Source: Sporisorium sorghi
Lineage: Eukaryota; Basidiomycota; Ustilaginomycetes; Ustilaginales; Ustilaginaceae
Direction: 5' to 3'
DNA length: 52,457 bases
NCBI GenBank assembly: GCA_023212695.1
Contig: JALCCG010000126.1
Span: 1-52,457, forward strand
Of the stretch, positions 1,420 through 25,200 are shown in pieces. The notes beneath the pieces are model-generated. The model was not told where the DNA came from and searched no databases. It saw only the letters and a program-made list of their open reading frames with translations. Made by a program: the position numbers and the translations under genes. Each line of letters starts with the position of its first letter. Position 1 is the first letter of the stretch.

Positions 1420-4400
1420 CTAACCCCTCTTGCTCGGCGCCAAAGCAGCCGCACTCGCCGTCTGCCCCTTGTACACCTTCCGCTTCCCCGCGTCATCCTG
1501 AACATCCTCTTTCGTGAAATAATGCTTGGCCACCTCCAACAGCCACTCGCTCCGAATCTGCATCGTCTGCCGCATAAAGTTCTTGCTCGTCTCGACCAGC
1601 TCGAAATAGCACAGAAACGGCGGCTGCGGGATCTGCTTATACAGGCAACTCGACGGATGAATGTGAATCGTCGTGTTCTGCTTAATCGCGCGGTACGCCT
1701 CGCCGCCCTTCTGTATGCGCGCCGTGTTCATAAAGTAACCCGCCAGGATCGAGCGCTGGATCCCCGAGATATCCGCCGGATCCGCATTGCTCTCCGGCGT
1801 CAGCTCGACGCGCTCGCACAGCTGCGCCAGCTGGTCGCGCACGTCGCGCACGCGCGCCAATACCTTGGGCTGCACGAAATTGTCGATGCAAAACTGATGG
1901 TCGTAGTTGCTCTGCACCCACTGCTCCCACACGTTGAGCAGCGTGAAATGGTCGCCACCCGTGCGTACGAAGGCTGCGCGCGCGCGGTCGGCGTGCATCT
2001 TCTTGTCCTTTGGCCGGAAGAACAGCGCCGACGATTCGGACAGCATCGACACGATCGACAGCACCTCCTCGGTGCACCGGTACGTCTCGGACGCCAGGAT
2101 CGCTTTGGATAGTTGCGGATCCACTGGAAACTCGGCCATTCGGCGGCCCAGCTTGGTCAGCTCGCCCTTGTCGTTGAGCGCGCCCAGCGCGTACAGCAGC
2201 TCGAACGACCGCATCAGCGTATCCGACGGCGGCGGGTCGAGGAAATCAAAGTTGAGCAGATCGTTAATCCCGAGCGACTTGAGCAGCAGCACCACATTGG
2301 CCAAGTTGGTCCGCTGGATCTCCGGAGTCGTGTTCTCGTCCATCTCGTTCCGAAAGGCCCACTTGGTAAACAGCCTGAAGCACTTGCCCGGCCCCACCCG
2401 CCCTGCTCGACCCGCCCGCTGATTCGCCGACGCGCGCGAACACGGCACCACCGTCAGCGACGACATGCCCGTGCGCGGATTGTACGAGTTCTGCTTGACA
2501 AACCCCGGGTCAATCACAAACACCACGCCGTCAATCGTGATGCTCGTCTCGGCAATGTTGGTGGCCAGCACCACCTTCCTCGCGCCCTCAGGCGTCGGTT
2601 CAAAGATCTTGGCCTGCATCTCGCTCGGCAGGTTGGCGTAGATGGGGCAGACGATGAGCTCGGCGATCTTATTGCCCAACGCCCGACTCGTCTCTTGCAG
2701 ATTCTCCATCGCCGCGTCGATTTCGTCTTGGCCTGTCAAAAAGACGAGAATGTCGCCGCGCGGTTGCGTTGTGTGAATCTGGAACACCGTCGTGATGGCG
2801 GCATGCAGGTAGTTGGCCTCGGGCTGCGGCGTATAGTGAATGTCGACGGGGTATCTGCGTCCTGGCACGTTAAAGATGGGCGCATCGTCGAAAAACTCCG
2901 AAAACTTCTCAGCGTCGAGCGTAGCACTCGAGATGAGCAGCTTCAGGTCCGGCCGAAAACGTGCAATGTCCTTGACCAGCCCGAAAAGCACATCCGTACT
3001 CAAAGTTCGCTCGTGCGCCTCGTCGATAATGAGCGCAGAGTACGAACTCAAGACCGGCTCGGTGAGAAACTCGCGCAGCAACATTCCATCGGTCATGTAT
3101 TTGATCACCGTATCGTCCGAGGTGCAGTCTTCGAAGCGGATGCTGTAGCCGCACTCGCGACCGAGACGCACGCCCATCTCTTCGGCAACACGCGCAGCGA
3201 CGCTCATGGCGGCGACACGACGCGGCTGAGTGCATCCCACCTTTTTGCCATTCTTGGTGTAGCCGGCTTCGTGCAGGAACTGCGGCAGCTGCGTCGTCTT
3301 TCCCGAGCCCGTCTCGCCGACGACGATGAGCACCTGGTACTCGTCGATGGCATCCAGCAATTCTTGTCGCAGCGCGTAGACGGGCAGCGATTCGCGCGTT
3401 GCTTGGATCTTGGCGGCTTTGGTCTCGGCCTCGTCGATCTGCTGCTGCAGCAGCTTGTCCCTGGCGCTCATCGCGTTGGACGAGGTGCCGGCCATCTGCG
3501 ACTCGACGACAAACTGGATCGTCTGGCTTTCGTCGAAGACGTAATCGTACTGTTCGACGAGCTCCTTGGCTGCCTCGTTGGCCGGTTCGGGAACGTAGCG
3601 CGAACGGTCTATCTGCTCCTTTTCAAACTGCTCGGCGTCTGTGACGTGCGTCTGCTGCGCGAGCCGTTCGGAGCGGGCATCGTTGTAGCGCTGGTAGAGC
3701 GCCTGCTCCTTTTTGGCTAGGTCCAGCTTGCCCTTTTCGGTGATGTAGTCCTCGGGCATCGCGTAGCCGGTATCGCCGTCGTCGATACGGGCTCGTTCTT
3801 CTGCGAGGCGCAGCACCTCCTTCTTGTACTCGAGATCCCGCTGTTCGCGCTTCGTCATTTTCAGACCGCGAAAGAACCGCTCCTCGTCTTGGATCTCGAG
3901 GCGGAGGAGCTCCATGCGCTGCTGTGCTCGTTTCGCGAGGTACTCTTGCCTAGATCGATCGCGGAGGCTGGACATGGCTGCGGAACGGGCGTCGTCGTCC
4001 TCGGCCAAGAGACGTCGCGCGGCTGCTTCCGGGTTTAGGCGGGCTGAGGTGCGGTCCTCGACCACGTTGCGCGTGCTGCCCTTGTCCTTGTCGCGGATGC
4101 GTCTGGCAAACTCGTCGCGCTCGGCGAGGTCTTTGAGTCTTGCACGCTCTCGCGAGTCCTCGTCTGATTCGGATGCCGAGGCATTGCGGCGCGGGCTAGG
4201 CGATCTGGATTGTCTGCGGTTGTCACTCCGGGGTGGTGAAGCGGGATGCGATTCCGCATCGCGCGTGCTGACATCCTTTTTTTTCTTCTTCTTCTTTTCC
4301 GGCTTGATGGCGAGCTCCTCTTCGCCGTTTTCCTCATCCAGCAAAAGCCCGTAGCGCTTCTTGCTGCTCTTTGCATCTGCGTTTCCATCCTTGCTCGAGG

Positions 4401-4647
4401 TCGAGGCCGCAGATTGCGGGTTGCTCTGACTAGCTCGAGGCACTCTGTTGTAAAGTTCGTTGGCGAAAGTGCGCGCCTCGTCGGTAGAGGGAAGACCGAG
4501 CGAGGTAAGGCTCTGAAACAGATCTGTTGGCGTCGATACGGAGGATGCAGAGACTTGGATAAAGTCGATGATGGACGACTGCGAGAGCCCAAAGAAGCGC
4601 ATGCTGTTGTCGCTGATCCAGCGCCGCAGCTCGGGATTGGACGTCAT
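1420..4647 (-). CDS. PRP2: DEAH-box pre-mRNA splicing helicase Prp2/DHX16
   Basis: Prp2/DHX16 is the ATP-dependent RNA helicase that remodels the activated spliceosome before the first splicing step. The 1,075-residue intronless frame has a charged, disordered N-terminal third with RS/SP-rich and lysine-rich tracts, as is usual for this family. The core follows with all key motifs: GETGSGKT (444-451, motif I), DEAH (542-545, motif II), SATLDAEKF (motif III) and QRAGRAGR (743-750, motif VI). Behind it are the HA2 and OB-fold regions typical of DEAH/RHA helicases. The N-terminal stretch starting MTSNPELRRWISDNSM resembles that of Prp2/DHX16 rather than Prp16, Prp22 or Prp43. The start is the first in-frame ATG. 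Its promoter must lie in the 340 bp between it and ATG14. The DEAH class is certain; the Prp2 assignment is very likely. Confidence 0.95.
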   Translation of the reverse strand: MTSNPELRRWISDNSMRFFGLSQSSIIDFIQVSASSVSTPTDLFQSLTSLGLPSTDEARTFANELYNRVPRASQSNPQSAASTSSKDGNADAKSSKKRYGLLLDEENGEEELAIKPEKKKKKKKDVSTRDAESHPASPPRSDNRRQSRSPSPRRNASASESDEDSRERARLKDLAERDEFARRIRDKDKGSTRNVVEDRTSARLNPEAAARRLLAEDDDARSAAMSSLRDRSRQEYLAKRAQQRMELLRLEIQDEERFFRGLKMTKREQRDLEYKKEVLRLAEERARIDDGDTGYAMPEDYITEKGKLDLAKKEQALYQRYNDARSERLAQQTHVTDAEQFEKEQIDRSRYVPEPANEAAKELVEQYDYVFDESQTIQFVVESQMAGTSSNAMSARDKLLQQQIDEAETKAAKIQATRESLPVYALRQELLDAIDEYQVLIVVGETGSGKTTQLPQFLHEAGYTKNGKKVGCTQPRRVAAMSVAARVAEEMGVRLGRECGYSIRFEDCTSDDTVIKYMTDGMLLREFLTEPVLSSYSALIIDEAHERTLSTDVLFGLVKDIARFRPDLKLLISSATLDAEKFSEFFDDAPIFNVPGRRYPVDIHYTPQPEANYLHAAITTVFQIHTTQPRGDILVFLTGQDEIDAAMENLQETSRALGNKIAELIVCPIYANLPSEMQAKIFEPTPEGARKVVLATNIAETSITIDGVVFVIDPGFVKQNSYNPRTGMSSLTVVPCSRASANQRAGRAGRVGPGKCFRLFTKWAFRNEMDENTTPEIQRTNLANVVLLLKSLGINDLLNFDFLDPPPSDTLMRSFELLYALGALNDKGELTKLGRRMAEFPVDPQLSKAILASETYRCTEEVLSIVSMLSESSALFFRPKDKKMHADRARAAFVRTGGDHFTLLNVWEQWVQSNYDHQFCIDNFVQPKVLARVRDVRDQLAQLCERVELTPESNADPADISGIQRSILAGYFMNTARIQKGGEAYRAIKQNTTIHIHPSSCLYKQIPQPPFLCYFELVETSKNFMRQTMQIRSEWLLEVAKHYFTKEDVQDDAGKRKVYKGQTASAAALAPSKRG

Positions 4648-4987: not shown

Positions 4988-7645
4988 CTAGACAAGATCC
5001 CAGCCTTCATCAGCGGATTGCTTGCGAGACTTTGCGCCGAGTCCGCGCGCCGAGTCGGTGGAACTCAAATTGCCAACACTCACCTCGACACCATTGAAGA
5101 TGACAGCACCGGGCCCGACCTTGGCCGGCAGAGGCTGCGATGTCTTTGAGCGAGAAGATGAATCTCCACTCGACGGTGCGTCCTTGCCCAATGATCCACC
5201 CTTGGCTTGAGAAACGTCACGCCCGCGTTGGCGCAAAAAGTCGAGCGAGGGAGGGGGCTGAGCAGACGCCGCCGAGCCACCACGCGGATCTGCACCGACC
5301 CGTTGCTTCTGTAGGCTGCTCACCGTATCCGGTCGCGTCGTTTTCCTCGTCGAGTTCGACTCTGGATGCTTCTCGGTCTTCGGCAGAGGTGTACGACCGG
5401 GTTGGGGCTGCGAGGATGGCTTGGGCGCCGCCGAGGATGGATCCTTAATGTCGAGCACCGAGGCTGCTGCCTCGCCAACATCCACATAGCTCTGCTCGAG
5501 CACCTTGGGCTGCGTCTGGGTGGGTCTCGAAGCTGACTGGCGTGATGTGGCAGCCTTGTGCGAATCGGTCTTGGAGACACCACGCTTGTAGGTATCGGCG
5601 GCTGCGTTGTTGGGCTCCAAGATCTGAGCAAGCTGCTCGTAATCCAAACTCGGCAAGCTGAGGTCCTGAATACTCGACGGCCGAATGTGATTAGCGTGCG
5701 CGAGACGACCGAGTTCGGGTTGCTGCAGGAGCCTGCTCAAAAGCTCGAGTGGGTTGGCTGCAGCGGCGACGAGATCGAGCTTGAGGCCCTGCTTGGTGGC
5801 AAGGTAGGCGACGTTGTAGCAGAGCATGACGAGCGCCGAGACAAACGACTTTGCGGCCTGATCTGGCTTGGCTTTGGAGCTCGTGCGTGCATCTGATTCC
5901 GCTCGACGGTGTTGGTCTGTGTCGGCAACCGTGCTGTCGGAGCCCTCACTGGATCTGGATGGATGCGTTGCGGCGGAGGACAGGCCCCATGGCAGTGAGG
6001 CGCCCGAGGAAAGATGGATGTACGACTCGATGGTAGACAGAGTGGATGCACCGAGACCATAGGTAGACTCTGCGAGATTGTTGAGCTTGGAGGGTCGAGC
6101 GGCGGCGGAAGGCGAGGCGGTGAGGTGGGTGTATGCGCTCGACGAGAGGTAGAGATGTTTCGCGCTGGAGCCTCCGCCGCCATCCCAGAGCGGATCGGGA
6201 CGCAAGGCGAGCCTGCCCTTGTGCTGCTCTATCGAAAAAGGCAGAGCGACGCCGAGGTAGGCGGCTACGAGCCGGAGCAAGTTGGCGGCGTACGTGACAG
6301 CGCCATTGACATTCTCGCGTGGATAACGACGGGCATCGCTGGGCAAGGGCAGTGGAAGCGACGTAATCGACCAGCTACTCGAGGAAGACGGCGTCGGCGA
6401 CGTGACAACAGTGGCTCCGGGCGGTCGACTAGCCGAGATTGCGTCGTTGTGAGGGCTGCGGACATTTGCTATGTAAGAGGACGAGTTGCTCTGACCTAGA
6501 CCAAAGGCGCCAGGAATGTAGCGCTCCGAGAGTCGGCTGATGCGCTGCGCCACGGAGTTGCTGGCGGAAAGATCGAGAGGACGTGACCGCAGAGGTTGAG
6601 CTGATTTTGAGGACAGGGTATCGGGTGGAGATACGGAATAGAGAGCGAAAGCCTGTCGAGCAAGGGCAGCTCTGGTCGCTGCGAGTTTGCTCGACACAGC
6701 TGCAGCCTCTGTCTGAAGCAATGCAAGGTCGAGGCGAGCTCGAGTGAGGATGGCACCGAGCTGATGTTGGGTCGACTCTGGAGCCAAAGTGGCGGCATCT
6801 GCGGGCTCGTCCGTCTGACGCTCGTAGTGGGTATAGACGTCGGTGTAGACAAGAGGCACATCGATGTGGTCGGCAGCTGGATGAGCCAGCCAGCGTGACT
6901 TTGCAGCTAGACGAGAACGCTGAGCGGCCGAGGCCGAGGCGGGCGCCGAGGAGCCTTCGAGTGCCGACCAGGCCTTTGCGAGGTTCTGTTTTCGTAGAGC
7001 AATGTGAGCCAGCTTCTCCTTGAGCGCTTCTCGGCCTTGAAGGTGGGCATGCTGTGACTTGGAGATGCACTGATGAATGGATTGTACGCGAGATCGGATG
7101 GCGGCTTGCTGCGCCCGTAGCTGGATGAGCGAGTGCAGAACGAGAGGATGTTGCGTTGCATCGGAGGACGATGATGGCTCCGGAGCATTGGTATCGAATG
7201 GATCTGGTAGTGCGTTCTCGTTAATCGTGTGGATGTGCGATGGCTGCGATAGAGAGGCAGCGGGAGACGTATCGCTGGTAACGCTGGCTTGATCGAATAG
7301 AAGCTGGCTGACGGCAGCTTTGGCCTTGTCACGAGACAGTCCAAGCCTGCGCATCTCGGCATGGTGCGCTTGGATTCTTGAAGCGAGGCACGGATCGCAG
7401 TAGAATCGAGTATCCATCTGATGGCAATGATGACAGGCATGCGGCTCTGTGGTGGACGAAGCTGATGTCGAGGGAGCAGTGGCGGCATGCTTTAATTTGG
7501 CACGAGTGGGGATGGGTTGATGAGATCGTGAGGACGACGGTGACCCACCGTTCTTGAGTCTGTTTGAGGGCGAAGAGGTGCCGATCGAGTGACGAGATGG
7601 AGGTTGGCTAGGCCTCGATGGGCCTGGAGTAGAGGTGGACGCCAT
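4988..7645 (-). CDS. ATG14: autophagy protein Atg14 (PI3-kinase complex I subunit)
   Basis: Atg14 directs the Vps34-Vps15-Atg6 lipid kinase complex to the autophagosome formation site. The 885-residue frame shows the diagnostic N-terminal double CxxC motif: Cys71-x2-Cys74-x8-Cys83-x2-Cys86, the spacing found in yeast and animal Atg14 and absent from Vps38/UVRAG. Predicted helical, coiled-coil-prone stretches follow at about 165-240 and 290-330. The hydrophobic region around 440-460 (NGAVTYAANLLRLVAAYLGV) matches the conserved Atg14/UVRAG domain. The protein is far longer than yeast or human Atg14 because of Ser/Ala-rich disordered inserts. The last residues, DEGWDLV, look like an Atg8-interacting motif. 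The start is the first ATG. It lies head to head with RBX1 across 513 bp. Confidence 0.88.
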   Translation of the reverse strand: MASTSTPGPSRPSQPPSRHSIGTSSPSNRLKNGGSPSSSRSHQPIPTRAKLKHAATAPSTSASSTTEPHACHHCHQMDTRFYCDPCLASRIQAHHAEMRRLGLSRDKAKAAVSQLLFDQASVTSDTSPAASLSQPSHIHTINENALPDPFDTNAPEPSSSSDATQHPLVLHSLIQLRAQQAAIRSRVQSIHQCISKSQHAHLQGREALKEKLAHIALRKQNLAKAWSALEGSSAPASASAAQRSRLAAKSRWLAHPAADHIDVPLVYTDVYTHYERQTDEPADAATLAPESTQHQLGAILTRARLDLALLQTEAAAVSSKLAATRAALARQAFALYSVSPPDTLSSKSAQPLRSRPLDLSASNSVAQRISRLSERYIPGAFGLGQSNSSSYIANVRSPHNDAISASRPPGATVVTSPTPSSSSSWSITSLPLPLPSDARRYPRENVNGAVTYAANLLRLVAAYLGVALPFSIEQHKGRLALRPDPLWDGGGGSSAKHLYLSSSAYTHLTASPSAAARPSKLNNLAESTYGLGASTLSTIESYIHLSSGASLPWGLSSAATHPSRSSEGSDSTVADTDQHRRAESDARTSSKAKPDQAAKSFVSALVMLCYNVAYLATKQGLKLDLVAAAANPLELLSRLLQQPELGRLAHANHIRPSSIQDLSLPSLDYEQLAQILEPNNAAADTYKRGVSKTDSHKAATSRQSASRPTQTQPKVLEQSYVDVGEAAASVLDIKDPSSAAPKPSSQPQPGRTPLPKTEKHPESNSTRKTTRPDTVSSLQKQRVGADPRGGSAASAQPPPSLDFLRQRGRDVSQAKGGSLGKDAPSSGDSSSRSKTSQPLPAKVGPGAVIFNGVEVSVGNLSSTDSARGLGAKSRKQSADEGWDLV

Positions 7646-9000: not shown

Positions 9001-12000
9001 TCAGAGCCCAGAAATCTTGGTCAGTCGCACAATGCCATCCTCGGAAGCAGAGGCAAGCACCGCATCGTCTCCGTCTTCGAGCACCGCTGGCCGGAACGCC
9101 AGCTGGTTGATCTGCTCTGACGCTAGATGTGGCACTTGCACCGTCGTCGTCCATTCTCCACCGCCTTCAGTCGACTTTCGCTGCAGAATCTCGACCCCGC
9201 CATCCTCTTTGCCCACGGCAAGCACCAGATCCGCTCCAAACGCGATCGACGTGACCGCTTCGTCAAACTTGACCGTCTGCAACAACGCAAAAGGCTTCTC
9301 GCTTGCCCCATCCTCGAGCTGCAGCTCAAAGACCTTGATCGTCTTGTCCCTCGACGCCGTCGCAAACACGTACGGTCGAACAGCGTCGGTCGACCAGGCG
9401 CAGTCCCAAACGATACGCGCGTGCGAGCGCTCGCCTGTGAACGGCACAAACCGGACCTCGCCGTCCCCGCTCGACGCAGCGACCCGCTCGAACATCCTCC
9501 AGCTTCGGTCGCGCGAGCATGTGAGCACAAAGCGTGAATCCATGCTCCACTGAATGCGCGTGATGCTCAGCGTGTGCCCCTCGAGCACCGCGCACTCTCG
9601 CCAGTTCTGATCGCGGTCGTGGATGCGCACCACGGCGTGATCCTGACTCGTCGCTTTGCAGCACGAAGCAACGAAGCGTCCGCCCGTCGTCGTTCGCCCG
9701 CCATCCACGGGATTGGCCGGGTTGGCGCTAACCCAGAGCAGCTCGTATCCGTGCCCGTACAGCTTCTCGAGCTCGGGCCAGAGCGTCTCGACCGAAAGTT
9801 GTTCTTCCGAAGGCGGCTGACGCAGCACCGCAGAGAGCGATTCCTTGGCTGATCCAATCGGCTGGCCGCTGGCCGAGGGCGCTTCTTCGATCGTGGATCC
9901 CTCAAACACAGCGCGGTTTGACAGTCCCAGCGGCGGAACACTGGCGCCAACAGGACGAGCAGAGACATCCTCGCCCTTGCTCGTGCCCGAATTAGCACCT
10001 TGACTGCTTGCGGATAGACGCAGCTGATGAGACACGCGGTGCCGTTTCGCTGTTTCCAGAGCCTGAATGCGACGGGCTCCCTGTGCGGCGAGCCACTTGC
10101 GGATGGCGGTGCTGCCGATCTTGCTCTCGGCCAGCGCCTTGGCATCGCCCTGCAGCTCGGTCTCGCCTTCGCTGCCGACGACGCCAATGACCCAGTTCTC
10201 GAGCGACTCGAGCCCATTCTCTTTCCGCTTGCCATCGATAAACTCGGCACCAGAGAGGGTCTCGTCCGTGACGACGAGCGCCTGTAGATCCGCTTCGGTG
10301 GCTGCAGGACCAGCTACGTCCTCGAGCTTGACTACGCGCTGGTTGAGCGCAGTGAATGGAAGACGGACGAGGCTGATAAAGGCATTGACGGTGGCGATGC
10401 GCTCGTCGATGCGCTCGAGGAGGGCGGCATTGGACTTCTTCGTGAGCATGGCATCGTCTGTAACGCCGACAATGATCTCGCGGTCGGCGATAAGCGCTGC
10501 CATGGTGAGCAGGATCTTGTGTCCGACGTGAAGGTGGTCGAAAGTGCCACCCAGCGCTACCACTGGGTAGCATGTCAAGCCCTTACCGTCATCTCGGCCG
10601 ACGGAATCGCTGCTTTCCTGCAAGCTAAAGTCGGACTCGATCTTGCGAGTTTGGGTGCCGAGCTCCTGCCACGTCGTTGCTGCGTGTTGATCGAGACTGA
10701 CGTCCAGCAGCACTTCGACCTCTGGACTGTATAGTCGTTTGGCAGTCTTTGCAAGCGAGGCATCAGGAACGAGCAGAATCGTAAGATTGGCGAGCATTAA
10801 GCCACGTCGAACAGCAACGCTCCAGGCCTGAGCGTAGAGCCACTTGAGATAAAGCTCGATCTGCTTGAAGCTGAGACCCTCGAAAGGCCTTTGGAAGAGA
10901 GCCGACGACACCATTGCGGTGACGGAATCGGTCTGCTCCTTGCAGTGTTGCTCGACCGTCTGCTTGACGAGATCGCCATGTCGCTTTGCTGACGCGAGAA
11001 GACCGAATCTTGGATCGATCGACAGATGGAGCAAAGTATCGTTTCCTGCAGCGGGACGAGATGCCGCCCGCGACTCGGCCTCCGAACCGAGGGTTGCGCA
11101 GTGGAGGCCATTCTTGCCAGCAGTGCCAACAAATCCACGCGGAGCAGCAAAGACGCGCAACACCTTTTCGTCGGCAGCCGAGACAAAGTTGAGTCGGTCG
11201 AGCCAGGAGACGGAATGCAGATCGTATCCATGCGACTGAGGGCGTGCGACTTCATGCCAAGTAGCTTTTCGTGGATCGAGACGCTGCGCACGCTTCTGCA
11301 TGGGACGGGCATGCAAGCGTGTGGTCTGATCGTCAGAACAACTGACAAAGTACTCTCCACAAGGCTCCCATGCCAGGGATCGGGCGCCGGCAAAGTGGCC
11401 CGTGACAGGGTCAGTGACCTGCCATGTTGCGGCTTGTTGTGAGAGACTCCAAATGTGCGCCGAGCCTCCCCAGCCATGCGCAACTACGCCAGAGACGGGC
11501 TGCTCAGGATCGACCGAAGCGGATTCGGGAAGGCTTGGCTGCCACAGAGCGCCAAAGAAGCCGAGGTTGCTGGCACCGCCGACCTCGCCGAATCGCTGGG
11601 AGGGCATCCAGATGGAAGAGGCGAGGTGGTGCATGGTGGGACCTCGAGCGCGCTGTGCTCCTCCCGAAGAGAGGAGGTTCAAGTCAAAGGCGGCAAAGGG
11701 AGACGACGAATTGGTCTCGGACAGCTGTCCAGAAGGTGTCCATAGGATGAGACTGTTGTCCGCCGAGGACGAAAGAAGCGCCGCGGGCTGGGCAGGGCGA
11801 CCATTCGCAGCCAAAACAGCTGGATGCCAGCGCACTCCAGTGACCCAATTGTCGTGTCCGACCAGCAAGGCGTCAAAGGTGATGGCCCAGGTCTGTTTCG
11901 TCCCGTCTGCTCGCTCGATGGCGAAAGGATGTGCGCGAGTCGAGATCTCCCCGGCTTTTGTGCTACGGTCCGATTCGATCTTGGCAACCATTTGCTCAAA

Positions 12001-12849
12001 GTCGTCGTCCGTCTTAGCCGAAGCTGGTGCCTGCTGTGACGACGTCGTCTCAGGTTGGTCTGTAGGAGCAATCTTCCATAGCCTGACGCTGGCGTCTTGG
12101 GATCCACTGGCCAGCATGACAGTGTCGGCGTGCTGTTCGTCATCGGCAGCGGTAAAGGTGTTGCAGAGATCTAGCGATTTGATCCAGTCCTCGTGTCCTT
12201 CCAACGAGAGCTTGTGCTGGAACTCGAGCTGGCTGGCGGCGATACGCGAGGTGTAGATGTCGATCTTGTTTGTCGTCGTTGCCAACGTCATGAGCAGATG
12301 AGGCGAATTGCTGTCTGGCAATACCAACAGCGAAACATCCAGAGGAAATTGTCCTTTGAGATCCGCGCTCTGCACCAGCGTCGGCGCTTGCGAAAGATCA
12401 TCGGACAGCATCCATACTTTTAGCAGACCGTCGGAAGCACCCGAGACGATGACTGAACACCGATCCAATGAGGCATGGGAAGATCGGAGCACTCCGATGG
12501 CAGATACCGAGCCTTGATGTGCTTGCTGAATGGTGAGCGCCTTTGTCCAGCCTTGGTCTCCAAGAGCCCATACGCCAATCGCTCCTTCGGCAGATCCGGC
12601 TACGATGCAAGGATGCAACGAGATGCTGCTCAGCGTGGCAGACTTGAGGCATGTGATGGTCTTGGAGAAGCCTGTAGACAGCAGCTGCGTCACTCCAGCT
12701 GAGGAAGGGTGACCTGGCCGGTCCCAGATGGCTATCGACTTGTTGGCCGCATAGGCGATGACACTGTGAGGAGCATTGGCCCAGTCGGCGATGTGATTGG
12801 CGCGATTGAATGCCGCCGAAATGTACGAGCTCGAAGCCTGCGATGCCAT
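9001..12849 (-). CDS. ELP2: Elongator subunit Elp2 with inserted phosphopantetheine adenylyltransferase
   Basis: One uninterrupted intronless frame of 1,282 residues. Residues 1 to about 573 form the first Elp2 WD40 propeller, ending KVLRVFAAPRGF as in animal and fungal Elp2. From about 974 the Elp2 sequence resumes at LGLSNRAVFEG, followed by LWPELEKLYGHGYELLW and the second propeller to residue 1282. Between them, about 590-955 is a eukaryotic Cab4-type phosphopantetheine adenylyltransferase (ATP + 4'-phosphopantetheine to dephospho-CoA). It has GGTFDHLHVGH (767-777, with the HxGH site at 774-777), VVTDETLSGAEFI and ESKIGSTAIR (908-917), so the catalytic motifs look intact. Elp2 is a scaffold of the six-subunit Elongator complex, which makes the cm5U34 tRNA modification using acetyl-CoA. 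The ATG at 12849 was chosen because the 59 upstream codons contain no ATG. Elp2 and PPAT identities are both near certain; activity of the PPAT part is inference. Confidence 0.95.
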   Translation of the reverse strand: MASQASSSYISAAFNRANHIADWANAPHSVIAYAANKSIAIWDRPGHPSSAGVTQLLSTGFSKTITCLKSATLSSISLHPCIVAGSAEGAIGVWALGDQGWTKALTIQQAHQGSVSAIGVLRSSHASLDRCSVIVSGASDGLLKVWMLSDDLSQAPTLVQSADLKGQFPLDVSLLVLPDSNSPHLLMTLATTTNKIDIYTSRIAASQLEFQHKLSLEGHEDWIKSLDLCNTFTAADDEQHADTVMLASGSQDASVRLWKIAPTDQPETTSSQQAPASAKTDDDFEQMVAKIESDRSTKAGEISTRAHPFAIERADGTKQTWAITFDALLVGHDNWVTGVRWHPAVLAANGRPAQPAALLSSSADNSLILWTPSGQLSETNSSSPFAAFDLNLLSSGGAQRARGPTMHHLASSIWMPSQRFGEVGGASNLGFFGALWQPSLPESASVDPEQPVSGVVAHGWGGSAHIWSLSQQAATWQVTDPVTGHFAGARSLAWEPCGEYFVSCSDDQTTRLHARPMQKRAQRLDPRKATWHEVARPQSHGYDLHSVSWLDRLNFVSAADEKVLRVFAAPRGFVGTAGKNGLHCATLGSEAESRAASRPAAGNDTLLHLSIDPRFGLLASAKRHGDLVKQTVEQHCKEQTDSVTAMVSSALFQRPFEGLSFKQIELYLKWLYAQAWSVAVRRGLMLANLTILLVPDASLAKTAKRLYSPEVEVLLDVSLDQHAATTWQELGTQTRKIESDFSLQESSDSVGRDDGKGLTCYPVVALGGTFDHLHVGHKILLTMAALIADREIIVGVTDDAMLTKKSNAALLERIDERIATVNAFISLVRLPFTALNQRVVKLEDVAGPAATEADLQALVVTDETLSGAEFIDGKRKENGLESLENWVIGVVGSEGETELQGDAKALAESKIGSTAIRKWLAAQGARRIQALETAKRHRVSHQLRLSASSQGANSGTSKGEDVSARPVGASVPPLGLSNRAVFEGSTIEEAPSASGQPIGSAKESLSAVLRQPPSEEQLSVETLWPELEKLYGHGYELLWVSANPANPVDGGRTTTGGRFVASCCKATSQDHAVVRIHDRDQNWRECAVLEGHTLSITRIQWSMDSRFVLTCSRDRSWRMFERVAASSGDGEVRFVPFTGERSHARIVWDCAWSTDAVRPYVFATASRDKTIKVFELQLEDGASEKPFALLQTVKFDEAVTSIAFGADLVLAVGKEDGGVEILQRKSTEGGGEWTTTVQVPHLASEQINQLAFRPAVLEDGDDAVLASASEDGIVRLTKISGL

Positions 12850-13144
12850 CTTCTCGTGCTGTAGCAGGTGTCCAGTGTGGTAGGTTGTATGTGATGTGAT
12901 GGTAGCAAAAGGTAGTGCAAGAGCATGGCTTAAGCGAAAGAAAAGTCCAAAAAGAATTTTTTGGCGGAAGGGCCGAAGAACAAAAAAAGAAGGGTCCGAC
13001 GCCGTCTCGAAGCGCTTTTCCTCCACTTGAGCAGAGCGGCTTCGGTTGATCAGAGCGTTGACACATGATGAAGGAGGTGATGCTCAGCTGCAGTCTCCTT
13101 TCATCCACCAAGGCCACCATGTGACAGCGATCAATCAGTCCAAC
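12850..13144. promoter_or_regulatory. shared divergent promoter ELP2 / ATE1
   Basis: Only 295 bp separate the two start codons, so these genes probably share a bidirectional promoter. A-rich tracts lie near 12950-12990. In-frame open extensions of both genes enter this stretch but have no ATG, so I treat it as non-coding. Confidence 0.55.
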
Positions 13145-14734
13145 ATGCCGAACAAGCGCAGTAAGGTCCAGCTGTCCATCATCTCGCCTACTGGCTACAC
13201 GGCATCTACCTGCGGCTACTGCACAGCTCCCGGCTCTGGCAAACGAAGCGCCTGCAAATCCAGCAAGTCGTACGGCATCTGGGTACACCGCCTCTCGCCC
13301 TATCACTATCAGAGCCTCATCGACCGAGGATGGAGACGCTCAGGCGACTATATCTACAAGCCGGACCTGCTCAGGACATGCTGCGCTCAAATACCCATTC
13401 GCCTCGACGCTCGTGATTTTCGACCAAAGAAGAGCCACAAGCGGGCACTCACGAATCTGCTCTTTCGAGTACGTCAGACCAAGCCAAAGCCCGCCAAGTG
13501 GAAGGGCAGGTGGAGCAGGGAACGAGACTGGAATCTAGAGGACCGCTGGAACGAGATCGTCCCGCCGCCCGTCCCAAAGGATGAGGCTTCTACGTCCTCG
13601 TCGACGTGGGCGGATAAAGTGGCAGGTCCTATCACGCGCAGACTCTCAGTGCGTTTAGGTCTCGCCGCCACCTCAGACGAAAAGTATCAGCTTTTCCGCA
13701 AATACCAGGCGACGATCCATGGCGAGTCGGATAAGGACATCAGCAGCGAAAAGGGCTTCCGTCGCTTCTTGGTCGACACGAGCCTTGCATTGACCTGGCC
13801 CTCCACTGGCGAACCGCTGAGCCCCGCCGAAGAGACGCAATGGCGAGCCAAAAGCCTGGACCCGGCAAACTTGCCTCAAGAGCTGCCGTACGGCTGCTAC
13901 CATCAAGAGTACCGCCTCGACGACAAGCTCATTGGCGTGGGCGTGCTCGATATCCTGCCCAACTGCGTCAGCAGCGTCTACCTCTTCTACGATCCCGAAT
14001 ACAAGGATTGGCAGCTAGGCAAGGTTTCGGCGCTACAAGAGATTGCCTTGACCAAGCGGTTAGGTCGACTCGGAGCCATGGCAGATATCACTCGCTACTA
14101 TATGGGCTTCTACATCCACACGTGCCAAAAGATGAAGTACAAGGCAGAGTATCGCCCGAGTCAGGTGCTCGATTGCGACACCGACACATGGCGGGATCTG
14201 GTGGATGTGACCTCCAATTTGGACGCAAAGCAGTTTTTTGGTTGGTCAGATGGCCAACATCAGCGGGTGAGCAACTCAAGAGCCGAGCTTCAAGCATCGG
14301 ATGTGGACGCAGAAGACAAAGTTATCCGCGTGCCTACTCAGCCACGTCCGCCGCCAGGGATGCTCGATGCCGCTGCCATTCTCAAGAGTCTCGTGCAGTA
14401 TCTGCACGGCTCTTCTTTGCCCGAGGCCGGGTCTGGGTTGGATCTCCTGCAGCACGCCATGGTGCTGGAAGCGCAAAACCAGTCGCAAGGCATCAAACCG
14501 CTCTTGGTAAGTCGTCGAGCCCCCGTCTTTGAGCCTAGATTCCGGTCAAATTGACGAGTCTCCGTTGCCTCTTTGGCTTGTTGTCAACAGATGTCCAACA
14601 TCCTTCGCGACTACGTGCAGAGCAGTGGTGGACAACCAGACGATGATGAGGACTCAGAGCTGGTACAGGTGGTGGAGTGTGTCGCTGCGCTGTCGAGTCC
14701 CGAGCTGGTCGCCGAGATGGTCGTGTTCATCTGA
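13145..14734 (+). CDS. ATE1: arginyl-tRNA--protein transferase Ate1
   Basis: Ate1 transfers arginine from Arg-tRNA to N-terminal Asp, Glu or oxidised Cys, creating N-degrons read by the Ubr1 ubiquitin ligase. Two exons, 13145-14506 and 14591-14734, split by an 84-bp GTAAGT...CAG intron in phase 0, encode 501 residues. The N-terminal ATE_N domain shows TCGYC (Cys23, Cys26) and a Cys-Cys pair near residues 75-76, the conserved Cys cluster linked to metal or Fe-S binding. The C-terminal GNAT-like half includes VGVLDILPNCVSSVYLFYDPEY and the typical YYMGFYIHTCQKMKYKAEYRPS. Length is close to the yeast enzyme. ATG 13145 is the first ATG of the frame. It is head to head with ELP2 and tail to tail with DSS1. 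Confidence 0.96.
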
Positions 14735-16345: not shown

Positions 16346-19300
16346 ATGAAGGCTTACATCAACCGCACCGCCACTTTTGCATGGTCGCCTGCTACCTACG
16401 AATCCGACTCACCCCTCATCGCAACGGGTACCGTCGCCGGTGCTCTCGACGAATCCTTCAGCAATGAATCCGTCCTCGAGCTCTGGCAGCCTTCCTACAC
16501 CGCCTCTGCCTCCGCCTCGGCCGATGCAAAGCCGCTAGGCAGCATCTCCACCAGCGCTCGCTTCAACCGCCTCGCTTGGGGCTACGCCAACCCTTCGCGT
16601 CCCAATGGTCTCCTCGCAGCTGGTCTCGAGAATGGCGAACTTGGCATCTGGGATGCCCAAAAGATCCTCGCAGGCGCTTCCGAGTCCGACGCGCAGGTGA
16701 TCAAAAACACAACACATACCGGTCCCGTTCGTGGCCTCGACTTCAACCCTCTTCAGCCTAACCTCCTCTCCAGTGGTGCCGTCGCCGGCGAAATCTTCAT
16801 CTGGGATCTCAACTCGCCTGCAAAGCCCTACTCGCCCGGCGCACGCTCTCAAAAGCTCGACGAGATCACCTCCTTGGCTTGGAACTGCCAGGTCCCTCAC
16901 GTCCTCGCCACCTCTTCTAGCAGCGGATACACGGTCGTCTGGGATCTCAAGGGCAAGCGCGAAGTTGTCGCTCTTCAGTATGGCGGTGGTGCTGGCACTG
17001 CAGGTGGCTCGCTTGGCTTCAACGCTGGAGGTGCCCTCGCTGCTGGTGGTCGACGCGGCATGAGCGCTGTTGCTTGGCATCCCGACACTCCAACTCGTCT
17101 CGTCACCGCCAGCGAAGACGACTCGAGCCCCGTCATCATGCTCTGGGATCTTCGAAACTCGCGCGCTCCCGAAAAGATCATGACCGGCCACGACAAGGGC
17201 GTCCTTTCGCTCTCCTGGTGCAAGCAGGACGCCGATCTTCTCCTCTCTTGCGGCAAGGATAACCGCTCCATCTGTTGGAACCCTCAGACTTGCGAGGTGG
17301 TCGGCGAGCTGCCCTCCAGCTCCAATTGGTCTTTCGAAGTTCAGTGGTCTCCTCGCAACCCCGGCATGCTTGCTACTGCCAGCTTCGACGGCAAGATTGG
17401 CGTCCACTCGCTTCAGAGCACCAACGCTCCCGAGGCCGACGCTCCAGCCCCACAGCAAGCCACGGACGACTCGGACTTCTTCAACCAGACCCCCGCTACC
17501 GAGACCACCTCCAAGGGTTTGTCGCTCAAGCAGCCTCCCAAGTGGCTCCGTCGTCCCGTCTCGGCCGTCTTTGGCTTCGGTGGTCAGCTCGTTTCCAGCG
17601 GTGGTCCTTCCTCCAAACCTTTCACTCCTACCGTCCACCTCCGCGACATTGTCTCAGAACCCTCCATCGTCGAAAGGGCCACCAAGTTGCAACAAGCCCT
17701 CGACGGTCAGAGCCTCGCCGAGTTCTGCGCAGAACGCAGCCAGGACCCTTCCACCCGCCCCGACGACATTGCAAACTGGAAGGCGCTTCAGACCCTCTTC
17801 CGTGCCGACTCCCGCGACGAGCTCGTCGTCTTGCTCGGCTTCTCCAAAGAGGATGTCGCCCAAAAAGTGTCCAAGTCCATCGCAGCTTTCAAGTCCAATG
17901 GCACCGCCACTACAGAGCCAGAGGCCGCTTCAATCGACAAGGTCATCGACGAAGCTGAGCCGGCTCAGCCTGCCGCTCCCACAGAGGCTGCTGTGACGGA
18001 AGAAGCTGCCCCCGTCGTCCAGGCAGCCGCCGAATCCGAAGCGAAGCAACCCGAAGAGCCAGGTCTGTTCGGCGATGACACCGCAGACCAAAACAAGGAC
18101 GCCTCGGACTTCTTCAGCCAGATCTCGGCTGATGCTACCCCGGCCAGCCGATCCGCTCTGCCCAGCCACCTTCTCTCCGAGTCTCAGGCACCCATCCAAT
18201 CCTCCGCCGCTGCCACTGCTGGCTCGCCAGGCCCGTCGTCCGTCGCGAGCGAAAACATCCGTCCCTCCACCTTCAAGATCTACCCCACCGAGGAATCCGA
18301 GGCCGACAAGCTCATCACCCGTGCCCTTGTGCTTGGCGACTTTGAGAGCGCCGTCTCGCTCTGCATCAACAGCGATCGCTTCGCCGATGCCTTCCTCCTT
18401 GCCGTTCGCGGCGGTCAGGACCTCCTCGACAAGACACAAAAGGCGTACTTTGAGAAGCGCACCGCACAGCTTCCTTACCTGCGCCTCTTCCAGAGCATCG
18501 TCTCGGACGATCTTTCCGATGTCGTCCAGAACGCCGACCTGGGCGAGTGGCAGGAGATCTTCGTCGTTTTGTGCACGTTTGCCAAGCAGGACGAGTTCAG
18601 CAACTTGACCGAGCAGCTCGGCCAGCGTCTCGAGTTCCAGTACACTGTTGCACGCAACTCGGACACCGCTCAGGCCAAAGAGCACCGCAAGAACGCCGTT
18701 CTCTGCTACCTCGCCGCCGGCAAGCTGGAAAAGGTCGCGGGCATGTGGATCGACGAGATGAAGGAGGAGGAGCTCGCGCTTCGATCCGACAGCAAGAGCG
18801 CCGACGCCTCCCACGAAGGCACCCTCTACTCTGCGCGTGCCGAAGCCCTGCAGACCTTCATGGAGAAGATCACCGTCTTCCAGAGCGCTGTTGGCTACGT
18901 CGATGTCGATCTCCAGCAGCCTACGCAGGATTCGATCGTCGCAGAGACCGGCGCCCGCTCCTACAAGCTGGCTCCGCTCTACGACCGCATTCACGAGTAC
19001 GTCGAGCTGCTCGCCGATCAAGGTCTCATCACGCCTGCTCTCAGGTTCGCGAACCAGACGCCCTCCGATTACCGACCTCACGGTCCCGTCGACCAGGGCT
19101 CTACCGGTTCGCTCACTGCCACGGCGCTCAAACAGCGCTTGCTCAGGGCCGAGATCGCACGTCCCAAGGGCGAAACGGCTGCTGCCTCATCGTCTGTCAA
19201 CAACAGTGTCACGGCTGCTGCTGCGTCCGCCTCTTCGTACGCTGCGGCACCCACCTCGAATGGATACGCTCCCTACGACTACGGCAGCTCGACCACTTCA

Positions 19301-20602
19301 AGCGTGCCATCCATTCCCACTGTGCCCTCTGTGCCTTCCGTACCTACGTATCAGGACCCGTACGCAGCTGTTGCCCCTGCCCCTGCGGCGGCTGCTCCTC
19401 AGCCTGCCACGCAGTCGCGATATGCACCGGCGGTGCCGGCTGTCGTGCCCGCGGCTACGCAGCCTGAACCGGCGCAGACCAACACTTACGGCGCTTACGG
19501 TGCCCAGGGCTACCAGTCGGCCTACCAGCCAGCTCAGCCCATGATCCCCGCTCCACCCACCTTCGGTGGCGCTTCGTACCAGCAACAGCAGCAGCAGCAG
19601 CTCCCTCCTCCTCCGCCTCTCAAGCGTGATCAGTCGGGCTGGAACGACGTTCCTGCAGGCCTTGCTGCGCCCAAGCGCACCCCAAGTGCCATGTCGCAGC
19701 ACAAGACTGCAGCAGCCATCACCTCGCCCTTCCCCAACGCCCCTGCTCAGGCACCTTCACCATACGGCGGCGCTCCTGGTGCTCCGCCCGCCGGACCTCC
19801 TCGTGGTGCGACGCCCTCTCGAGGCATGATGAGCCCACCACCCCAAGGTCCTCCCTCGGGTCCTGGTCTTGCACAGCAGCGAAACGGCCCTCCTGGTGTC
19901 CGACCCCCTCCTATGGGTCCCGCGCAGGGTCAGCCGCGACCTGGTCAGCAGCAGGGCCCCTACGGCGCACCAGCTCAAGGTCAGCCACAGCCCGGTCCAC
20001 CTGGCCAGGCTGCTCCTTCCGCTGGCCCCTACGCCCGACCTCCTGCAGGTCCCGCTGGTCCCTACGGCAATGGCGTTCAGCAACAGCAGGGCATGCCGCC
20101 AGCGGCTCCCGGTGCCGGCGCACTCCGACCTCCAGGCCAGGGCGCACCTGGTGCTCCTGGTCTCGCAGGTCCGCCCGGTGTACCTCAGCGTTCGGCAACG
20201 CCAGGGGGCGGTGCCGGTGCGCCTCCCCGCAGCGCCACTCCGGGTGCTCGCAACGCTTCGCAAATGAAGTACCCACCCGGTGACCGCTCCCACATTCCTG
20301 AAAACCAGCGACCCATCCAGCACGCCTTGCAGCGCGAGATCGCACGACTCAAGTCGACCGCGCCACCTGCTCAAAAGAGGATGGTCGACGACACGGAGCG
20401 CCGCATCAATCTGCTGCTCGACCATCTCAACTGCGGCACCATTGACGCCAAGACCGTGTCGGGTCTCATGCAGATTGTCGCCGCCATCGAGGCGAGAAAC
20501 AAGCAAGCTGCGCTCAACATCCACCTGCAGCTCGTCACCAGCAGCTCTGGCGATGTCGCTGCGGGCCTTGTTGGTGTCAAGATGATCATTTCGCGTCTGT
20601 GA
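16346..20602 (+). CDS. SEC31: COPII outer coat subunit Sec31
   Basis: Sec31 pairs with Sec13 to form the outer cage of COPII vesicles at ER exit sites and stimulates Sar1 GTP hydrolysis. The intronless frame encodes 1,418 residues. A WD40 propeller occupies about 1-370 (opening MKAYINRTATFAWSP, with VVWDLKGKR and MLWDLRNSRAPEK blades). A linker follows, then the helical ancestral coatomer element at about 650-870 (ADKLITRALVLGDFESAVS onward). Next is a Pro/Gln/Gly-rich disordered region at about 985-1310 that in yeast contacts Sec23-Sar1. A conserved helical C-terminus (RMVDDTERRINLLLDHL) closes the protein. Domain order and length match the family. The start is the first ATG, preceded by a CT-rich leader. 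A CAG-type Gln run lies near residue 1083. Confidence 0.97.
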   Translation: MKAYINRTATFAWSPATYESDSPLIATGTVAGALDESFSNESVLELWQPSYTASASASADAKPLGSISTSARFNRLAWGYANPSRPNGLLAAGLENGELGIWDAQKILAGASESDAQVIKNTTHTGPVRGLDFNPLQPNLLSSGAVAGEIFIWDLNSPAKPYSPGARSQKLDEITSLAWNCQVPHVLATSSSSGYTVVWDLKGKREVVALQYGGGAGTAGGSLGFNAGGALAAGGRRGMSAVAWHPDTPTRLVTASEDDSSPVIMLWDLRNSRAPEKIMTGHDKGVLSLSWCKQDADLLLSCGKDNRSICWNPQTCEVVGELPSSSNWSFEVQWSPRNPGMLATASFDGKIGVHSLQSTNAPEADAPAPQQATDDSDFFNQTPATETTSKGLSLKQPPKWLRRPVSAVFGFGGQLVSSGGPSSKPFTPTVHLRDIVSEPSIVERATKLQQALDGQSLAEFCAERSQDPSTRPDDIANWKALQTLFRADSRDELVVLLGFSKEDVAQKVSKSIAAFKSNGTATTEPEAASIDKVIDEAEPAQPAAPTEAAVTEEAAPVVQAAAESEAKQPEEPGLFGDDTADQNKDASDFFSQISADATPASRSALPSHLLSESQAPIQSSAAATAGSPGPSSVASENIRPSTFKIYPTEESEADKLITRALVLGDFESAVSLCINSDRFADAFLLAVRGGQDLLDKTQKAYFEKRTAQLPYLRLFQSIVSDDLSDVVQNADLGEWQEIFVVLCTFAKQDEFSNLTEQLGQRLEFQYTVARNSDTAQAKEHRKNAVLCYLAAGKLEKVAGMWIDEMKEEELALRSDSKSADASHEGTLYSARAEALQTFMEKITVFQSAVGYVDVDLQQPTQDSIVAETGARSYKLAPLYDRIHEYVELLADQGLITPALRFANQTPSDYRPHGPVDQGSTGSLTATALKQRLLRAEIARPKGETAAASSSVNNSVTAAAASASSYAAAPTSNGYAPYDYGSSTTSSVPSIPTVPSVPSVPTYQDPYAAVAPAPAAAAPQPATQSRYAPAVPAVVPAATQPEPAQTNTYGAYGAQGYQSAYQPAQPMIPAPPTFGGASYQQQQQQQLPPPPPLKRDQSGWNDVPAGLAAPKRTPSAMSQHKTAAAITSPFPNAPAQAPSPYGGAPGAPPAGPPRGATPSRGMMSPPPQGPPSGPGLAQQRNGPPGVRPPPMGPAQGQPRPGQQQGPYGAPAQGQPQPGPPGQAAPSAGPYARPPAGPAGPYGNGVQQQQGMPPAAPGAGALRPPGQGAPGAPGLAGPPGVPQRSATPGGGAGAPPRSATPGARNASQMKYPPGDRSHIPENQRPIQHALQREIARLKSTAPPAQKRMVDDTERRINLLLDHLNCGTIDAKTVSGLMQIVAAIEARNKQAALNIHLQLVTSSSGDVAAGLVGVKMIISRL

Positions 20603-22210: not shown

Positions 22211-25200
22211 TCAGGGTAGGAACTTCATCCATTTGGAAAGCCCCTCCAAACCTTTGATGGTGAGCGGCAGGGCTGGCTGTCGGTAGTCAAAGTTAGGAAT
22301 CTGGAACCCCAGGATTTCGACCCTGGCAGCCACCTCCAAATCCAGCATGATCTGCCCCTTGCTCTTGAGAAATGCGCCCACCATCTGCTCGAGCGGTTGC
22401 GCCAAGGTGACCGTCACGGGAGAGCTGCGCTGCTGCCCCGGCTGCTTGACACTGCCCGCCGGCACGCGCAACGGATGGGACGACTCGTACGTGATCGTGC
22501 AGCTGCCAAACGGCTGGCCCTTGTACGAGGCCATGAACGACATGGCGCACAGATCGAACGGTACTCCTAGAGGATTGTTGACAACAAACTCTGCATCCAC
22601 CGAGGCAGCGGTCAGAGCAGTGACGCCGAGCGTGATCGAAATACTGTCGATCAAAGTGCGGTCCATCATGGGCTTGAGGTCGAACGAAAGCTGGATGCTT
22701 TTCAGCGCGGGGATGAGCAAGGGGATCTCGCTCGACTCGTCGTCGCCCCGAATCTCTAGCGTGGTTGTGCGGCCCGACAAGAAGTTGGCGGGAATGTCGC
22801 GCACCGCCTTCTCCACCTCGGGCGGCGGGCAGTATCGAAAGTGAATGTCGTGGATTGCAACCGGCCCGGATTCCAGCTTGAACCCCTTGGGGATGTGAGC
22901 CCTTCCCACGTAATGGCCCCTGTAGTAAGCGGCCATGGTGAGATCTGTATCCGGCAGGGCCAGCTTGAACGTCTTGCTCGGATTGTTGAGGTAAAGCGAA
23001 AAGACAATCTTGAGATAGTCGCTCGACGCCTCTTCAATCTGCAGGTTGGTGTACTGGACAGGGCTTGATCGAAGACCGCGCACGCCGTCCATCTGCAAAA
23101 TGTGTGGCTGCTTGCCAAGGTCGACGTCGACAAAGATTTCACCAAATGCAACGTCGACGCGGGCACGAGCCTTGCCGCGGATGCTGATCTTGTCCGTCTC
23201 CTCGCAGTCGGCAATGTGGGCGATGAGTTGGGCGAGTGCCTCGGTCGGCTCTGTGACGAGCTTGAATGATCCAGGCGCAAGCCGGACCAGACGACACGAT
23301 CCAGCACTGTCTGCGCCTCCGTCATCGCCGTTGCTCTCTTCGACAGGAGTGCACGATTGTACGTCCGTGTCAATCACGCCCGTGCCAACGCATCCGTACC
23401 CTTCGTAATGCACCTCAATGTCGGCTTGAACGGACAGCACCTCAAAGCGGACATTGAGCGGCACTTGGACTTGGAATGCAATCTCGTCTATGTCGGCGTG
23501 CATGGGCTCTTGTCGATAGAAGCTGGCAAAGAGCTGCTTGATGCGCATGTGGTTGATGACCGGATGCGCGCCCTGATGCAGCACCGTCGTTGTCGAAACC
23601 TGTTGAAAAGCTTGATCCAGCCATGGCACTTGCTTTTGCGAAAAGTTCGAGCTGCCCGATGTACTGACAGAGCCGGTCCGCGAAAGCTTGGTAGAGTCGG
23701 TTCCGTGGCCCGTGGCGGACGGTGTCCTTTGCATCGAATTGGTCGAACTTTTGCTGCGAAGGTGCGGAGGCACCTGAGATCGACCGAGCGCCGTGTGTTG
23801 CAGCATCTCGCCCATGGCAAACGCTCGGTATCCCTTGACGGTCAATTCGACGGGCGTGCCAGCCAAGAGGGCGGTCGCAAGCCTGCCGAGCGTCTGCAGA
23901 GCAGCCGATTTATACTGGGCAATAGGCTGGTTGGCCTTGAACGATTCACTGCCGATGAAAACGTAGCCGCTGGCATCAAACTCGACATCTGCCGTCGTCA
24001 GAGTGAAGACAATGTCTTCAGCAGTGATGATACCGATTTGCACGCCTTCAAACTCGATGCCTGCCTCGATCTTGGATAGTCCAACTGCAACGAGGCCCTT
24101 GTGTGGAATGCTGACTCGAGTCCGAATCTTGAAGGCTTTCTCCTTGCGACTGGGGTGGCCGGAGCTGCCGCTGGATGCGGATGCAGCACTCAGCGCCCTG
24201 CCTCGGCCTGGACCCGTTGGCGCTGCTACCTCGTCGAAGAGATCAAAGGTTTTCAAGGTGAGCCCTCTCAGACCGCCAAGTCCCGGCAACACGACTGATT
24301 TGGTCAGCACTGCCGGAAACTCGGCTCCACCTGCTACGACTCGACAAGCATTCGAGGAGAGTCGGATCGGCAGCTCTTGGTTCTGAATGAGCTCAGAGAC
24401 AAAGGCTGAAAAGTTGGCGACACTCTTTGGCCCGGCACTGGGCAGAATACGCAGGCGCGTCTTGAGCAGCTCTTCGCTCCCTGAGACACCTCGCAGAGAT
24501 TCGGCAAAGACGATCCGAGCAACGACGGCCGACTCGTCTGCCGCATCTTTGGCAGGTCCATGTGTAATGTTGAGGCCTTGATCGAAGTGAATTTCGATGT
24601 CGAGTGGCCCGAAGTCAACCAGGCCGATGTCCGCTTCGGCATTAAGCCCTTTTTCGTCCATGTCGAGGATCTTGAGCTTGGTGATCGAAACCCTAGCCTG
24701 CTCAACCAGGACATCGACAAGCGGCGCACCGATCGTGGGAAGGATGTTCCGGGCTGTCTTGACCGTGATGGCGATGGGAAGCTGATGCTGAACGAAATTG
24801 ATCAGGCCGGGTACACGAAAATCGCCGATGGATACTTCCGCAGAGATGTCTGCCGAGACTTTGAGCGAAGAAAGAGCGCTGGCGACTAGGTTGGGTAGAT
24901 CGAGCACCTCATTTGGCTCGGATTTGGCTCGACTTGGCGACGGTGATACCGCCGACATTGCCTTGGTCGCGCCTTGCTCTGGCGGCATGAGCTCCAGTGC
25001 AGCGAGCAGACTGTGATTAAGCTGGATACCCTTTCGCTTGGCCTCGTTCTGAAGGATGCGCACGTACGAAGAACCGCCTGCCGACAAGCTGAAAGGGAGA
25101 CTGGCGTGGACGGGGCTGTCTGAGACTAGCATCAGTGCGGGCCAGTCGGCAGGGGTGCAGATTTCTCCGAGGCAGATAGGATCGGATGCAGAATTCGCGC

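Follow-up and report, generated by a model that had tools for sequence, protein, structure and literature searches.

Elongator is a widely shared tRNA-modifying machine whose Elp3 subunit modifies wobble uridines using acetyl-CoA; in fungi its subunits are usually dispensable. The Elp2 subunit contains two WD40 propellers, as in structures from yeast (PDB 5m2n, 4xfv and 8asw_B) and human (8ptx_B). Phosphopantetheine adenylyltransferase (PPAT), an enzyme of coenzyme A (CoA) synthesis, occurs in basidiomycetes as a stand-alone protein, the yeast counterpart of which we take to be Cab4. In the human CoA synthase COASY, PPAT is part of a multidomain protein and its partner is the next pathway enzyme, dephospho-CoA kinase (DPCK). 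CoA enzymes have also been found joined to proteins of other pathways. Examples are the Hal3-thymidylate synthase of S. pombe and UmHal3 of Ustilago maydis, a protein of 1,430 residues with a VPS9-like part and a phosphopantothenoylcysteine decarboxylase (PPCDC). UmHal3 is the only functional PPCDC of U. maydis and is essential; the VPS9-PPCDC combination was seen in Ustilaginales and not in Malasseziales (PMC6695811). Here we analyze a gene of Sporisorium sorghi in which a PPAT is carried between the two propellers of Elp2. The gene lies in a window of 52,457 nucleotides, positions 1 to 52,457 of contig JALCCG010000126.1 of assembly GCA_023212695.1. It is likely that its product does two jobs, in that the middle part is the sole PPAT of the fungus, which would make this Elongator gene essential.

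The minus strand of the window from position 12849 to 9001 is a single open frame of 1,282 codons plus stop (9001..12849), which needs no intron. It starts with an in-frame ATG at 12849, ends with the stop codon at 9001-9003 and is open farther upstream to a GTG at 13026. A preliminary description, made from the letters alone, had read this stretch as one stop-free frame in the order Elp2-PPAT-Elp2. The sequence bears this out, and the residue numbers given for KVLRVFAAPRGF (end at 573), HxGH (774-777), ESKIGSTAIR (908-917) and the LGLSN start (974) are correct. All parts are on the minus strand. Propeller 1 comprises residues 1-573 (11131..12849) and propeller 2, starting with LGLSNRAVFEG, residues 974-1282 (9004..9930). 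Both match PDB Elp2 chains in phmmer searches (8avg_B, 8ptx_B and 5m2n_A for propeller 1). For the whole chain 8avg_B was the best hit (E 1.8e-100); the blocks matched by Elp2 chains stop at about residue 575-577 and resume at about 960-965. The two propellers have the same order as in known Elp2. The enclosed PPAT spans residues 577-955 (9985..11121), with an alpha/beta N-terminal part at about 590-740 and a catalytic part at about 763-925. The latter contains the nucleotide-binding motif HxGH (residues 774-777, 10519..10530; GGTFDHLHVGHK) and the second PPAT motif, KIGSTAIR (residues 910-917, 10099..10122). Base composition by codon position, including the third position (GC3), and codon usage do not distinguish the insert from its flanks. 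Codon usage of the insert correlates with that of propeller 1 at 0.74 and with that of propeller 2 at 0.68, while the two propellers correlate with each other at 0.67.

The identity of both parts, as first proposed, is supported by the PDB matches and by the PPAT models. The insert matches Pfam CTP_transf_like with 31.7 bits (cut-off 21) and the NCBIfam PPAT model PRK00777 with 89.2 bits (E 2.9e-25; curated cut-off 104). The NCBIfam library is aimed at bacteria and archaea, and PRK00777 exceeded its own cut-off in only 3 of 14 control genomes. In the AlphaFold model the insert forms a confident PPAT fold. We then compared the insert across 46 aligned fused sequences; fragments and the second model of one strain (P0004, P0006, P0017, P0032, P0040 and P0046) were left out of this alignment. 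Residues H774, G776, H777 and K778 of the motif GGTFDHLHxGHK, the basic residues K805, R817 and R875, and K910, G912, S913, I916 and R917 of the second motif are identical in all 46, and T914 in 45 of them. The claim that the PPAT motifs are intact therefore agrees with invariant columns. We take some of these conserved residues to correspond to catalytic residues of the E. coli enzyme. The glycine at 912 is also found in all five Tilletia PPATs and in 18 of 110 other stand-alone sequences. Because stand-alone PPATs can carry it too, it is presumably not a sign of lost function. Two further positions are common to the insert and all five Tilletia PPATs, namely alanine at 849 (44 of 46 fused rows) and threonine at 861 (46/46); the other stand-alone PPATs have threonine (108/110) and serine (110/110) there. 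The insert is a full-length fungal PPAT of the Cab4 type, N-terminal part included, and is predicted to be active. It shares its length and catalytic columns with the stand-alone basidiomycete enzymes, its neighbours in the tree described below, and differs from them in that it is not free but carried within Elp2.

The Elp2 halves were examined at positions whose change harms Elongator in yeast (PMC5286394). These include residues in HEDW (219-222), HGYD (540-543) and DEK (560-562) of propeller 1 and in EKLYGH (1028-1033) and Arg 1113, 1115, 1145 and 1167 of propeller 2; all were counted across 37 fused rows. In EKLYGH all but the Glu and Leu (Lys, Tyr, Gly and His) are present in 37/37, as are the H, D and W of HEDW and the E and K of DEK; each of the four basic-patch arginines is present in 36 or 37 rows. 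Other positions vary: E1028 is kept in 16 rows, E220 in 17, D543 in 22, E422 in 27, Y542 in 30 and D560 in 32. Unfused Elp2 rows vary as well, with E220 in 11/15, E1028 in 1/15, D543 in 14/15 and D560 in 13/15. Residues required for Elongator function in yeast are thus mostly retained in the fusion. The full chain was modelled with AlphaFold for a Malassezia relative; P0027, P0031 and P0035, with a cut N-terminus, were set aside as unfit. Fitted onto yeast Elp2, the Elp2 part of this model aligns at 2.3 A across 724 of 772 residues, so that the folds and an undisturbed propeller geometry, the same as in known Elp2, are predicted. Genes for Elp1, Elp3 and Elp4 are present in the assembly, and the fusion protein would be incorporated in Elongator.

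The preliminary description concerned a single locus and suggested a look for the same Elp2 architecture in other Ustilaginomycotina. We used the insert (residues 590-955) as a query against proteins of 0.55-1.75 times the full length; the 7,991 best candidates were scored and 46 proteins returned. Forty-three of the 46 carry GGTFDH and at least one Elp2 mark, and 38 carry the marks of both propeller 1 (GHxDW) and propeller 2 (LGLSN). The fused species identified by name are Sporisorium graminicola, Pseudozyma hubeiensis, Ustilago loliicola and members of Kalmanozyma, Testicularia, Violaceomyces, Tilletiaria, Ceraceosorus (two), Jaminaea, Parajaminaea, Sympodiomycopsis, Microstroma, Meira and Exobasidium and, with the propeller-1 query described below included, four Malassezia; the total is 22 named species, three of them with incomplete names (Sporis..., Mela..., Pseu...). 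According to the taxonomy look-up, Violaceomyces belongs to the Ustilaginomycetes, Jaminaea, Tilletiaria and Tilletia belong to the Exobasidiomycetes, and the Malasseziomycetes are a third class; for the remaining fused genera we assume the usual class placement. The fusion is thus conserved across three classes of Ustilaginomycotina. No named row from Moniliellomycetes or Peribolosporomycetes was among the protein matches listed for the insert, stand-alone-size and propeller-1 queries. The remaining three of the 46 proteins, P0043-P0045, contain the PPAT and neither Elp2 mark. They are a related trio, in which a WHIM1-domain protein takes the place of the Elp2 parts (by domain scan in P0043, by precomputed domains in P0044 and P0045) and is followed by a PPAT with KLSSTAIR; this may be a second fusion or a merger of neighbouring gene models.

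The converse search with propeller 1 (residues 300-573) gave 480 matches. Among the best 120 of these, 41 contain GGTFDH, and none of the 79 without it is longer than 1,000 residues. Propeller 1 and LGLSN are separated by 336-444 residues (median 398) in the 45 fused chains measured, compared with 30-43 residues (median 35) in 77 unfused chains. These lengths support the view that the junctions lie in the inter-propeller linker, which in the fusion encloses an enzyme. P0167 (723 aa) is apparently a gene model of the fusion that ends prematurely within the insert. We also considered the possibility that the fusion is an artefact of assembly or gene modelling, given that the assembly includes bacterial-looking contigs. 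The preliminary description had named a join error absent from relatives as one thing that would overturn it; the relatives share the architecture and the same linker, in 22 named species from several sources, and an artefact was rejected as having practically no chance of being the explanation.

An alternative transcript, a long splice or proteolysis could still separate the chain into a free PPAT and a plain Elp2. A scan of the coding sequence for short introns, with donor, branch site and acceptor within about 230 bases and hence limited to introns up to that size, found one pattern, at bases 3634-3834. This sole pattern is in propeller 2, away from the insert; the frame is open across both joints, and 38 of the 46 predicted proteins run from propeller 1 through propeller 2. 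Such a separation is therefore regarded as improbable.

Next we analyzed the relation of the fusion to Tilletia, in which Elp2 and PPAT are separate genes. Among the matches listed, two unfused proteins carry names from the Ustilaginomycotina, P0168 (921 aa) of Tilletia walkeri and P0176 (985 aa) of T. horrida. A search for stand-alone-size relatives of the insert gave 216 matches, the best 120 of which were examined; the matches listed include at least five Tilletia stand-alone PPATs of 344-364 aa. No named member of the Ustilaginomycotina other than Tilletia was found among these best 120. The remaining named rows are mostly genera that we take to be Agaricomycotina or Pucciniomycotina, plus other fungi, and some of the nameless rows are fragments of fusions. 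Two of these Tilletia proteins, P0048 and P0051, are named 'Elongator subunit elp2' even though only a PPAT domain was seen in them (P0048 scanned, P0051 precomputed); the name was probably carried over from fused relatives. The genuine unfused Elp2 of T. horrida, P0176, has the same name.

Trees were constructed from the PPAT part (46 fused rows and 35 of 115 stand-alone rows), from Elp2 without the insert (leaving out P0034, P0036 and P0179, in which the pattern was not found) and from both joined. In the PPAT tree the Tilletia rows group with the fused ones (support 100/99), and this group adjoins basidiomycete PPATs. Within this group Tilletia is nested among the fused rows by starred branches, while the Elp2 and joined trees leave its placement open. 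The unconstrained trees require two changes of the fused state; a single fused clade is nevertheless not rejected by the approximately unbiased (AU) test (p-AU 0.252 for PPAT, 0.257 for Elp2 and 0.404 for the joined data). The trees are consistent with either of two histories: the insertion may predate the split of the sampled classes, in which case Tilletia undid the fusion, or it may have come just after Tilletia left.

We searched the assembly of the window (23.17 Mb in 469 contigs) in six frames for a stand-alone PPAT elsewhere in the genome, as the preliminary description had advised. Neither the PPAT family nor the insert nor a stand-alone Serendipita PPAT, used as query, revealed a second fungal PPAT in the assembly. 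The fusion locus was the sole strong match of all three, and the family query added only weak places with E 0.05 and 0.22. A sweep with CTP_transf_like hit six places, the fusion locus and five others, each of which was inspected. Among the other CoA genes, those for pantothenate kinase (PanK), PPCDC and DPCK lie on contigs that look fungal. A fungal phosphopantothenoylcysteine synthetase (PPCS, Cab2) was not found by the six-frame search, in which PF04127 matched only bacterial CoaBC; probably this is a limit of the PF04127 model or of the search. The assembly is mixed. Bacterial-looking contigs (C33, C46, C111, C331 and C460; loci L005, L007, L009, L012, L013, L019, L020 and L023) hold genes for CoaD, NadD, CoaE and CoaBC, a PRK13670 gene and, by eye, a PanC-like frame; GC is 0.49-0.52 at bacterial-looking and 0.56-0.63 at fungal-looking loci. 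These contigs may come from a spore-forming Firmicute such as Paenibacillus. The CoaD on contig C331 (TIGR01510, 198.8 bits) was rejected as a fungal PPAT, as the contig also carries the PRK13670 gene and a flavoprotein of bacterial appearance by eye, and GC at such loci is in the lower range.

Several points weigh against the reading of the insert as the only PPAT within a working Elp2. The insert stays below the curated cut-off of its best PPAT model (89.2 versus 104 bits) and below those of two further PPAT models. In its second motif, K-x-G-S-T, the Gly stands in a place taken by Ser in 92 of 110 non-Tilletia stand-alone rows. The mixed assembly does contain a CoaD, albeit of bacterial type, and since the fungal PPCS was not found, a fungal gene can escape the six-frame search. 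The survey of relatives is based on the best 120 of 216 stand-alone-size rows and the best 120 of 480 Elp2 rows, most database proteins being nameless, and Tilletia lacks the fusion. Some yeast-important Elp2 positions (E220, E422, Y542, D543, D560 and E1028) vary among the fused rows, and the support as a whole comes from sequences and structure models. The low model score, the Gly and the missed PPCS would fit an insert that is a structural or sensing relic, with the true PPAT hidden in an assembly gap or too divergent to be recognised. We consider this very improbable, in view of the catalytic columns invariant in 46/46 fused rows, the Gly in 18/110 stand-alone enzymes and the failure to see named non-Tilletia Ustilaginomycotina among the stand-alone-size rows examined.

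Under the preferred reading, that of a two-job protein, the PPAT would be an independent tethered domain and would require no regulation by Elongator. Since yeast Elongator contains two copies of each subunit (PMC10018365), each complex would carry two PPATs. CAB1-CAB5 are essential genes in yeast (PMC8494682), from which it is predicted that the ELP2 gene carrying the PPAT is essential here. The earlier suggestion that the fusion makes a normally dispensable Elp2 essential thus stands as a prediction, with no second fungal PPAT found in the assembly. Deletion of ELP2 would be lethal through loss of CoA, which could mislead genetic screens. In much of the fungal subphylum to which the smuts and the skin yeasts Malassezia belong, a subunit of Elongator appears to have become the carrier of a CoA enzyme. 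Automatic names hide the enzyme, since fusions are called 'Elongator complex protein 2' and stand-alone Tilletia PPATs 'Elongator subunit elp2'.

The two activities could also be functionally coupled, as in the proposal of the preliminary description that the fusion supplies or senses CoA at Elongator, with the PPAT on Elp2 feeding CoA to Elp3 or reporting CoA status to it and so tuning tRNA modification with CoA synthesis. Three classes have retained the fusion, its two parts largely intact, which would fit this, and there are precedents, although all of them concern other proteins. In human COASY, the PPAT part by itself binds the acetyltransferase CBP, and acetylation mediated by CBP is inhibited by COASY (PMC5847545). 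Pyruvate-derived acetyl-CoA supplies Elongator under joint control in mouse cells (PMC11696611), and an ATP-citrate lyase-HAT1 module suggests local supply of an acetyltransferase (PMC10241871). Acetyl-CoA carboxylase (Acc1) co-purified with yeast Elongator, but the passage stops at a co-immunoprecipitation result that opens 'As we did not observe' (PMC10018365). The product of PPAT is dephospho-CoA, two steps before acetyl-CoA, and DPCK is not part of the fusion. Moreover, Tilletia manages with separate genes, and these fungi have their PPCDC joined to a VPS9-like protein (PMC6695811), which favours fusions without pathway logic. These two observations indicate that coupling is dispensable for both proteins and that other partners, too, can take part in such fusions; we view coupling as unlikely, though as the main rival of the preferred reading. 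A bolder version, to which we give a somewhat smaller chance, has the CoA pathway built into Elongator. The sole PPAT, in two copies per complex, would inform or feed Elp3, decoding would follow CoA status, and the PPAT would be held by CoA and its precursors. If the PPAT meets PPCDC as in the CoA-synthesising complex of yeast, the VPS9-PPCDC protein of Ustilaginales would bring Elongator and an endosome-type protein together in a single CoA factory. As a natural construct, the fusion allows one to ask whether the supply of CoA and the wobble modification of tRNA communicate, with Tilletia as the unfused comparison.

The assembly of S. sorghi contains a counterpart of UmHal3, a frame of 1,475 aa on the minus strand of contig C100 (L024:1853-6280) with VPS9 at residues 778-910 and the flavoprotein domain at 1244-1463. 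Two CoA-synthesis enzymes of this fungus are thus within fusions to proteins of other pathways. By analogy, the UmHal3 parallel suggests that CoA enzymes can sit in unrelated host proteins without a common purpose. Like UmHal3 and the S. pombe Hal3 protein, Elp2-PPAT links a CoA enzyme with another pathway; its partner is a subunit for tRNA modification, where COASY has DPCK. The Hal3 proteins are published terminal fusions of PPCDC, whereas here a PPAT is inserted in a linker. The author of the preliminary description knew of no publication on such a protein, and likewise we found no description of an Elp2-PPAT fusion in the open-access literature, although an account elsewhere is possible. 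As far as that literature goes, this is an undescribed fusion of two known families.

The fusion gene lies head to head with ATE1, encoding an arginyl-tRNA-protein transferase with ATE_N and ATE_C domains (plus strand, frame 13046-14551, in-frame ATG at 13145). About 300 bases separate the two ATGs, and with these starts the intergenic stretch 12850..13144 likely holds the promoters of both divergent genes. Farther along the plus strand, 16346-20599 encodes a WD40 protein with a weak SRA1 match, which we take to be Sec31-like. On the minus strand are a DEAD/DEAH-type helicase with OB and HA2 domains (1423-4647), an ATG14/VPS38-like protein (4991-7645) and a DUF3712/LEA_2 protein (22214-26626).

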